Shown here piece after piece: positions 27,611-29,764 of a stretch of 37,746 bases of DNA. The stretch's first letter is position 1, and each line of letters opens with the position of its first letter. This stretch comes from Bacillota bacterium. GTDB taxonomy: Bacteria; Bacillota; Clostridia; Oscillospirales; Oscillospiraceae. The DNA lies in assembly GCA_029098045.1 (NCBI GenBank), contig JAQXNO010000004.1, forward strand, positions 1 through 37,746, given 5' to 3'. The notes under the pieces were generated by a model. The model saw only the letters and a list, made by a program, of their open reading frames with translations. It was not told the origin of the DNA and searched no databases. Both the position numbers and the translations under genes were made by a program.

Positions 27611-27639
27611 TTGACTTTCGTCGTAAACCGTCGTATAAT
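27611..27639 (+). promoter_or_regulatory. SigA-type promoter for the LRR gene
   Basis: TTGACT (27611-27616), 17-bp spacer, TATAAT (27634-27639). Confidence 0.7.
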
Positions 27640-27671: not shown

Positions 27672-29387
27672 ATGAAGAATTCAGCCAAAAGGTTGGTACC
27701 GATTCTGTTGGCATTTCTGATCATTGCCAGTGTGTTTTGGTACTGCTTTGTTTATGACCGAGACTTTACCCGGGATATGCTGCTTCAGCAGGCCCGCTAT
27801 CATTCCACCAACGGCAATCCCAAAATTGCATCCTGGTTTTATGATCTGGCTTACCGGCACTCCGGTCAGGATGAAAATGTTGCCATTGAGCTGGCTAACC
27901 AGTTTAAGGCTGACGGCAATTACACCAAGGCAGAGTATACGCTCTCCAATGCAATTGCCGATGGCGGTACGGCAGAGCTTTATATTGCACTTTGCAAAAC
28001 CTATGTGGAGCAGGATAAATTGCTGGATGCGGTAAATATGCTTGACAACATCGCCGATGCGTCCATCAAGGCAGAGATCGATGCCGTCCGCCCTGCCGCT
28101 CCCGTGGCCGATCCCCTCCCCGGCTTTTACAGCGAGTATATCCCTGTGAGCCTCTCCACTCCCTCCGGCACTATATATTATACGACCAACGGAGAATATC
28201 CTTCTGTTGAGGATGCCCCCTTTACGGATGCCGTTACCCTGGGCGGCGGTGAGACCCTGATTTATGCGGTAAGCGTGGACGACAATGGTCTGGTCAGTCC
28301 CCGCAGCATTTACGCTTATACCGTCGGCGGCGTGATTGAAGAAGTGATGTTCGAGGATTCCGCAATTGAAAGCGCTGTCCGCCAACTGATCGGGCGAAAC
28401 GACGGAGAACCTCTGTATACCAGTGAATTGTGGAACATCAGTTCTTTTTCTGTTCCCAAAGAAGCGAAATACTGCGATGACCTGACAAAGCTGTCCTATC
28501 TGAAATCCCTTGAGATTTCCGAGCAAACCTTTGACTCCCTGCGGTTTCTTTCTTCTTTGAGCAGCCTGACGGAGTTGACAATTACTGATTGCCGGTTTGG
28601 CGCTGAAGAATTGTCCGTCATCGCCGCACTGCCCAATCTGCAGCATCTGACGCTATCCAATTGCGGACTATCCACCGTCTCCGGTCTGGAGAATGCCCAG
28701 AGTCTCATCTCTTTGAATCTTGCCAACAACACCGTCAGAAATCTGGAGCCGATCGCACGAATGGTGAAGCTCCAGGACCTTGATTTGCAGCACAACGCGC
28801 TGACCGGTCTGAATTCTCTGAGCGGTTTGAATGAGTTGCAGAAGCTGAATGTATCCTACAACTCTCTGACTTCTCTTGCGCCCCTTGCTACATGCACCAA
28901 GCTGGCATGGCTGGATGTTAATAATAATGAGATTGGCACACTGAGCGGCATCAACAATCTGCCGCTTCTGAGTTACCTCGCGGCAAACCACAACAATTTG
29001 TCCGATCTTTCCCTTTTGAGTGAAAGTATCATGCTGACAGAGCTGTATGTGGCAGACAATGAGCTGACAGACATCACTTGCCTTGGTTCTCTGAACAATC
29101 TGGAGGTGCTTGATTTTTCCAGCAATCAGATAGAAGTGCTGCCCGCCTGGTCAAATGATGCCAGCCTGCGCATCATCGACGGATCTCACAACAAGGTAAG
29201 CTCTTTGGCCAATTTGAAAAATCAGATGAATCTGACCCATGTTTATATGGATTACAATGCCATTACTTCCATTTCCGACCTGCAGAACTGCTACAAGCTG
29301 GTGATGGTCAATGTTTACGGCAACAAAATCGACGGTGTACGTGAACTGACCGATCATGACATCATTGTCAATTGGGATCCCACCTGA
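27672..29387 (+). CDS. Membrane-anchored leucine-rich-repeat protein with TPR-like and chitobiase-C-like (CHB_HEX_C) segments
   Basis: N-terminal TM (RLVPILLAFLIIASVFWYCFVY), TPR-like helices, 'PGFYSEYIPVSLSTPSGTIYYTTNGEYPS' CHB_HEX_C-like domain, then about 11 LRRs of 21-22 residues of internalin type (LxxLxLxxNxLxxLxxL). Confidence 0.85.
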   Translation: MKNSAKRLVPILLAFLIIASVFWYCFVYDRDFTRDMLLQQARYHSTNGNPKIASWFYDLAYRHSGQDENVAIELANQFKADGNYTKAEYTLSNAIADGGTAELYIALCKTYVEQDKLLDAVNMLDNIADASIKAEIDAVRPAAPVADPLPGFYSEYIPVSLSTPSGTIYYTTNGEYPSVEDAPFTDAVTLGGGETLIYAVSVDDNGLVSPRSIYAYTVGGVIEEVMFEDSAIESAVRQLIGRNDGEPLYTSELWNISSFSVPKEAKYCDDLTKLSYLKSLEISEQTFDSLRFLSSLSSLTELTITDCRFGAEELSVIAALPNLQHLTLSNCGLSTVSGLENAQSLISLNLANNTVRNLEPIARMVKLQDLDLQHNALTGLNSLSGLNELQKLNVSYNSLTSLAPLATCTKLAWLDVNNNEIGTLSGINNLPLLSYLAANHNNLSDLSLLSESIMLTELYVADNELTDITCLGSLNNLEVLDFSSNQIEVLPAWSNDASLRIIDGSHNKVSSLANLKNQMNLTHVYMDYNAITSISDLQNCYKLVMVNVYGNKIDGVRELTDHDIIVNWDPT

Positions 29388-29393
29388 GACGCT

Positions 29394-29540
29394 ATGTGTA
29401 ATGTCTGCAGTATTGGTGTGATTGGCTGTGCCGATGGCCCTACCGCCATCTTTATCACAGGCAGCTTCCCCTGGGGCTTGCTCCTTCTGGCAGCAATCTG
29501 CGCCGCAGCGGCTATCTGGTTTTTCAAAAGAAAAAAGTAA
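29394..29540 (+). CDS. 48-aa ADGPT-motif microprotein (orphan fragment-like of Na+-decarboxylase beta subunit)
   Basis: Translated by hand: MCNVCSIGVIGCADGPTAIFITGSFPWGLLLLAAICAAAAIWFFKRKK*. 'SIGVIGCADGPTAIFIT' matches the OadB/GcdB/MmdB signature; followed by one TM and a KRKK tail. Not in the ORF track (below its size cut-off). Confidence 0.75.
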   Translation: MCNVCSIGVIGCADGPTAIFITGSFPWGLLLLAAICAAAAIWFFKRKK

Positions 29541-29598
29541 CAAAAAATCCACCGAATTGTGACACCCGGTATCGGAGTTACAATTCGGTGGATTTTTG
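29541..29598. terminator. Long bidirectional terminator hairpin
   Basis: AAAAATCCACCGAATTGT (29543-29560) / ACAATTCGGTGGATTTTT (29580-29597), perfect 18-bp stem. Confidence 0.85.
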
Positions 29599-29602
29599 AT
29601 TA

Positions 29603-29764
29603 ATACTAATTCTTATTTGGAAGATTTAATCAGCGGCGCAGGGATATTGGCGCAAGACAAGGCAAAAGGAGCGCAGCCATACTCTATGTATGGCAAGTGA
29701 CGATAACGCAGTATTGCGTCAATAGGCCCAGCTGATATGAAAGATTTTAATTAAGGATTCGTAT
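29603..29764. repeat. Foldback/MITE-like element with terminal inverted repeats
   Basis: Ends ATACTAATTCTTA (29603-29615) / TAAGGATTCGTAT (29752-29764), 11/13 inverted matches; ATCAGC (29629-34)/GCTGAT (29731-36); TATTGGCGCAA (29645-55)/TTGCGTCAATA (29714-24); central hairpin GCCATAC-tctat-GTATGGC (29676-29694). Confidence 0.65.

Follow-up and report, generated by a model that had tools for sequence, protein, structure and literature searches.

The open reading frame (ORF) at 29394-29540 of the window, the whole 37,746-nucleotide stretch of Clostridia DNA analysed here, can with high confidence be regarded as a genuine gene that encodes a single-pass microprotein. It has very probably been maintained alongside the neighbouring LRR gene since the ancestor of the window species (genome G000) and its sister species (G901). 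The 48-residue product is one of a group of mutually unrelated Clostridia proteins, apparently without a name so far, that share the same 17-residue motif. We consider it very likely that this motif is a promiscuous module that corresponds to the H1 hairpin tip of OadB. As a whole, the data are best explained by a conserved microprotein gene with a portable 17-residue recognition or docking module, an account that we hold at a little below even confidence. The features of the region are as follows.

29394..29540, + strand: ADGPT microprotein gene, 48 aa (ORF; syntenic homologue in sister species G901; pN/pS)
29409..29459, + strand: 17-residue motif resembling the OadB H1 tip, SIGVIGCADGPTAIFIT (alignments; PF03977 positions 112-145 against residues 4-37)
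29472..29534, + strand: transmembrane (TM) helix, residues 27-47 (AlphaFold2 helix 27-47, pLDDT >90 over most of it)
29526..29537, + strand: basic C-terminal tail KRKK, predicted cytoplasmic (sequence; positive-inside rule)
27672..29387, + strand: upstream LRR gene, probably in the same transcription unit as the microprotein gene (Pfam; promoter and GGAG 5' of 27672; 30 homologues)
27611..27639, + strand: promoter-like TTGACT-17-TATAAT, probable promoter of the LRR-microprotein unit (11/12 matches; a consensus match only)
29543..29597, + strand: intrinsic terminator hairpin with a T run (-34.8 kcal/mol, z -8.0)

The microprotein gene and its transcription unit

The ORF, its sequence and its coordinates agreed exactly with the first-pass annotation, and the single TM helix, the KRKK tail and the terminator that it placed after the ORF were borne out. 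The ORF begins 6 nt past the stop of the LRR gene and lies in the same frame, separated from it by a single TGA. Its ATG is not preceded by a Shine-Dalgarno sequence, and its motif carries a Gly-to-Cys change (GCADGPT). The LRR protein has an N-terminal TM segment followed by TPR-like, CHB_HEX_C_1 and LRR domains (Pfam). Since the promoter-like site and a GGAG are located upstream of 27672, this position (MKNSAKRL) is likely a better start for the LRR gene than 27642. The promoter-like site 5' of the LRR gene and the strong terminator 3' of the microprotein gene indicate that the two genes probably form one transcription unit. ADGPT was found once across the six frames of the entire window, and no other OadB-like beta subunit was found there. 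The sole full-length oadB of the genome is intact and lies on a different contig (C33), and the genome has one non-OadB copy of the motif. A dispersed intergenic repeat of ~165 bp lies at 29600-29764, between the terminator and cinA; roughly ten copies are present in the genome, with 74-95% identity.

Conservation of the gene in the genus

In the sister species, the order of the LRR gene, the ADGPT microprotein gene, the terminator and cinA was the same as in the window genome. The LRR tree grouped the two species as sisters (support 0.998), and their LRR proteins shared 62.5% identity. The G901 microprotein (MTTPGFHASVGIIGGADGPTAVFISG...LLTRKNK) starts behind a good ribosome-binding site, GGAG, and of the two copies the window copy is the odder. 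Between them, pN and pS were 0.35 and 0.81 for the whole ORF and 0.16 and 0.76 for the motif part, values that serve as a rough guide because the synonymous sites are near saturation. Only five conservation comparisons of microproteins were possible within the genus. In the pair L120/L123, the motif had no amino-acid changes and all 5 replacements were in the TM part. The first-pass annotation had proposed a stand-alone, conserved and probably co-transcribed membrane microprotein, and this proposal was supported, with the LRR linkage seen in the two sister species. The observations that it had named as counting against the gene did not appear: the closest relative had no frameshift, the motif was under purifying selection, and the microprotein gene is not a decaying fragment beside an oadB gene. 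The N-terminal CNVC of the microprotein, in contrast, was not conserved in the alignment.

The ORF lies in the LRR frame in both species, and C-terminal motif fusions are known in other hosts. It could thus descend from an LRR-ADGPT fusion whose C-terminal tail was split off, or be a product of stop readthrough. We regard this as improbable. The last residue of the window LRR protein is also the last in its homologues from ~30 other genus members; where they were inspected directly, there was no ADGPT ORF 3' of the LRR gene, which was followed by a terminator. Moreover, the stop codons differ (TGA and TAA), and the G901 microprotein gene has a Shine-Dalgarno sequence and an ATG of its own. The pairing with LRR is kept in only two species, and the simplest reading of these sequences would be a single gain of the microprotein followed by retention under selection. 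The missing Shine-Dalgarno sequence and the Gly-to-Cys change would also fit a non-functional hitchhiker that is decaying in the window species. However, the ORF, motif, TM helix and basic tail persisted as the LRR DNA diverged to ~67% identity, and a hitchhiker is quite improbable.

Three other origins were rejected. A decaying piece of oadB does not agree with the separate intact oadB in the genome or with the LRR genes of the genus, which simply end before a terminator. A remnant of a HAAS-ADGPT gene 3' of the LRR gene does not agree with the other relatives, which have no tail at all. In G057 and G019, where the LRR and HAAS-ADGPT genes are close, the LRR gene has its own terminator and an opposing gene lies in between. 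Recent copying from the oadB of this genome was rejected from the codon match of the motif (0.46, against 0.42 in shuffled genomes, p 0.025), a slight excess that shared codon usage could explain.

Relation to OadB and its sodium site

In OadB, Asp203 sits at the tip of helical hairpin H1 and binds Na+ together with Ser382 (PMC7274780), which confirmed the role that the first-pass annotation had given it. The window microprotein matched OAD_beta (PF03977) with an E value of 3.5e-6 and 26.7 bits against a family cut-off of 31.6, and the match was restricted to residues 4-37. The score for TIGR01109 was 27.2 and did not reach the cut-off of 190.6. The similarity to PF03977 is thus far beyond chance, yet it gives no family membership by cut-off. 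The microprotein resembles the OadB/GcdB/MmdB beta subunits (PF03977, TIGR01109) in the conserved positions of the 17 residues; the GGADGPT of the hairpin tip is GCADGPT, with the Asp present. In contrast, these subunits are transporters of ~400 aa, and the 48-aa, one-TM microprotein lacks the second hairpin (Ser382/Asn412) and the full transporter fold.

The first-pass annotation proposed that the motif is reused as a Na+ site. As a half-site or OadB mimic, the hairpin would bind Na+ or regulate the OadB pump by docking on it. In support of this, the residues equal the OadB H1 tip including the invariant Asp203, the D203A mutation abolishes Na+ binding in OAD (PMC7274780), and 42 of the 44 genomes with the motif had full-length OadB. 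However, 91/107 genomes of the order have OadB in any case, so its presence in motif genomes is little above this base rate. No full-length OadB was detected in the motif-bearing genomes G360 and G924, both draft assemblies. Reuse as a Na+ site is possible but unsupported: the microprotein has no Ser382/Asn412, and the same 17 residues are also seen in linkers of soluble proteins and in tails that face the cytoplasm. Since the half-site partner is missing, some hosts are soluble and OadB is near its base rate, we prefer a docking peptide to a Na+ site, which we consider rather improbable.

Distribution of the motif across Clostridia proteins

We collected 67 distinct non-OadB motif proteins, nearly all from Clostridia; this number is one script's filter over relatives, the order, the genus and public genomes. 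The sampling was by motif, so the counts are lower bounds biased to canonical sequences; many of the genomes are incomplete drafts, and host functions come from Pfam or from reading by eye. The statement in the first-pass annotation that short orphan ADGPT ORFs occur in Clostridia was right, and such ORFs are widespread. The consensus of the module is S-[IV]-G-[IV]-I-G-G-A-D-G-P-T-A-[IV]-[FYLM]-[VI]-T. The I-G-x-A-D-G-P core is invariant or nearly so and each residue is encoded by 2-4 codons, which indicates that selection acts on the peptide. A phylum-wide sample gave the pattern in 2 of 399 genomes, although this exact pattern misses many variants, including the window copy. Both were the same microprotein of 46 aa (L257, L258), with little beyond motif, TM segment and KKKK, located 3' of a gene resembling gamma-glutamyltransferase (ggt) in two genera outside the order.

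The motif was C-terminal in ~57 of the 67 proteins, followed by a hydrophobic stretch in 55 and a basic tail in 52. These hosts, whose N-terminal parts are mutually unrelated, were microproteins, lipoproteins, XRE-HTH proteins, PadR-linked HAAS proteins, a pullulanase-like enzyme and large ABC-2-like permeases. Pfam identified pullulanase, HTH, GtrA, PlsY, HAAS and, weakly, ABC-2 among the hosts. The C-terminal rule was broken by GtrA and multi-TM HAAS proteins, which carry the motif inside loops, and by a secreted protein. It was also broken by a PlsY acyltransferase in which the motif extends the N-terminus ahead of the first TM segment (L114), by a soluble family of ~500 aa, and by an MFS-like transporter with the motif at its cytoplasmic C-terminus and no TM segment after it (L365). 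The last is from G924, which has three motif proteins. The uncharacterised soluble family (L250, L251, L252, L255, L366; 340-520 aa) had Pfam matches to the motif itself only. Motif copies were thus found on both membrane sides, usually just outside the membrane and usually 1-3 per genome. The motif is not OadB-specific.

Free ADGPT microproteins elsewhere in Clostridia have good Shine-Dalgarno sites and adjoin unrelated genes. The specific partnership with the LRR protein suggested in the first-pass annotation is therefore not general; its reading as a stand-alone microprotein and its statement on orphan ORFs in Clostridia stood, while this partnership and the Na+ site reuse did not. The genomic contexts differ, and no shared operon partner or common enzyme gene was seen among the neighbours read by eye. 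Membership in a defence or phage family was rejected, as neither PADLOC nor PHROGs gave a match. In the literature searched, we found no paper on ADGPT microproteins or on the motif outside decarboxylases. Some HAAS (PF22564) and XRE regulators with TM tails bear exactly the ADGPT module after their TM segment; unlike them, the window microprotein has no DNA-binding or HAAS domain.

Structure and a possible docking function

AlphaFold2 gave a confident TM helix for the window microprotein and a weak beta-hairpin at the motif (pLDDT ~58). In the soluble host family, the model placed the motif in a low-confidence linker, and this weak model gave no significant PDB fold match. The predicted orientation of the microprotein is N-out and C-in, which would put the motif on the outer membrane face.

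Tripartite sorting signals (LPXTG, PEP-CTERM, IPTL-CTERM, Loki-CTERM) likewise combine a short outside motif, one TM segment and a basic inside tail on unrelated proteins, and the window microprotein has all three parts. The main rival to the docking peptide is that this unit is a C-terminal processing signal on which a dedicated membrane enzyme acts by cleavage or transfer, in the manner of LPXTG/sortase and PEP-CTERM/exosortase, with the microprotein as a detached signal or mini-substrate. The architecture of ~57/67 copies favours this, as do weak matches of the window protein, all below the cut-offs, to Loki-CTERM (17.9 against 19.9), LPXTG_anchor (15.5 against 15.9) and IPTL-CTERM (11.6 against 20.5). 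However, the motif itself differs, and the module is not restricted to the C-termini of exported proteins, as shown by the loop, N-terminal, soluble and MFS-tail copies. The few copies per genome and the lack of a common enzyme gene among the neighbours also argue against it, and we consider a processing signal unlikely.

In the docking account, the module would be a portable recognition peptide attached in-frame to its hosts, and the TM helix and basic tail would merely hold it at the outer membrane face. A common partner would recognise the fixed ADGPT hairpin, and the sequence of the hydrophobic helix could change freely. As both genes are on one transcript, marking or recruitment at the membrane by the microprotein would follow LRR expression. 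We regard this mechanism as decidedly tentative. That an ion-site-like peptide serves in Clostridia as a portable module on regulators, enzymes, transporters and microproteins, read by a common partner, is possible but somewhat doubtful. Against docking, a single partner is less easily envisaged for a motif present on both membrane sides, the copy in the window departs from the usual form, and the LRR pairing is limited to two species. The motif part of the model is also weak, and translation of the microprotein is only predicted. If a shared recognition peptide is true, a new receptor or processing enzyme would be expected in common gut bacteria. Owing to the PF03977 match of the motif, short ADGPT proteins are also liable to be annotated as decarboxylase subunits.

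Possible mobility of a microprotein gene

Rickettsia palindromic elements and PARCEL coding repeats (PMC2996958) are also short peptide-coding stretches in many unrelated proteins. In contrast to these palindromic DNA repeats with several copies per genome, the ADGPT module has no DNA-level repeat, and its codons vary while its residues are fixed.

The size, single TM helix, basic tail and scattered contexts of the microproteins would be consistent with a small hydrophobic toxin of the type I toxin-antitoxin kind, as would a 189-bp unit common to two unrelated loci. Nevertheless, the motif is fused to many long proteins, a fixed outer motif is unlike such toxins, and no Rfam match was found in the window, although novel RNAs would escape Rfam. 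We consider a toxin very improbable. The 189-bp unit belongs to the MKAHSIGIIGG-type microprotein of the genus (L120, L123, L353, L354, L355), which was found in two unrelated genomic contexts. The homology around this gene spans ~190 bp at ~90% identity, with nothing beyond. These sequences suggest that the small microprotein gene can move.
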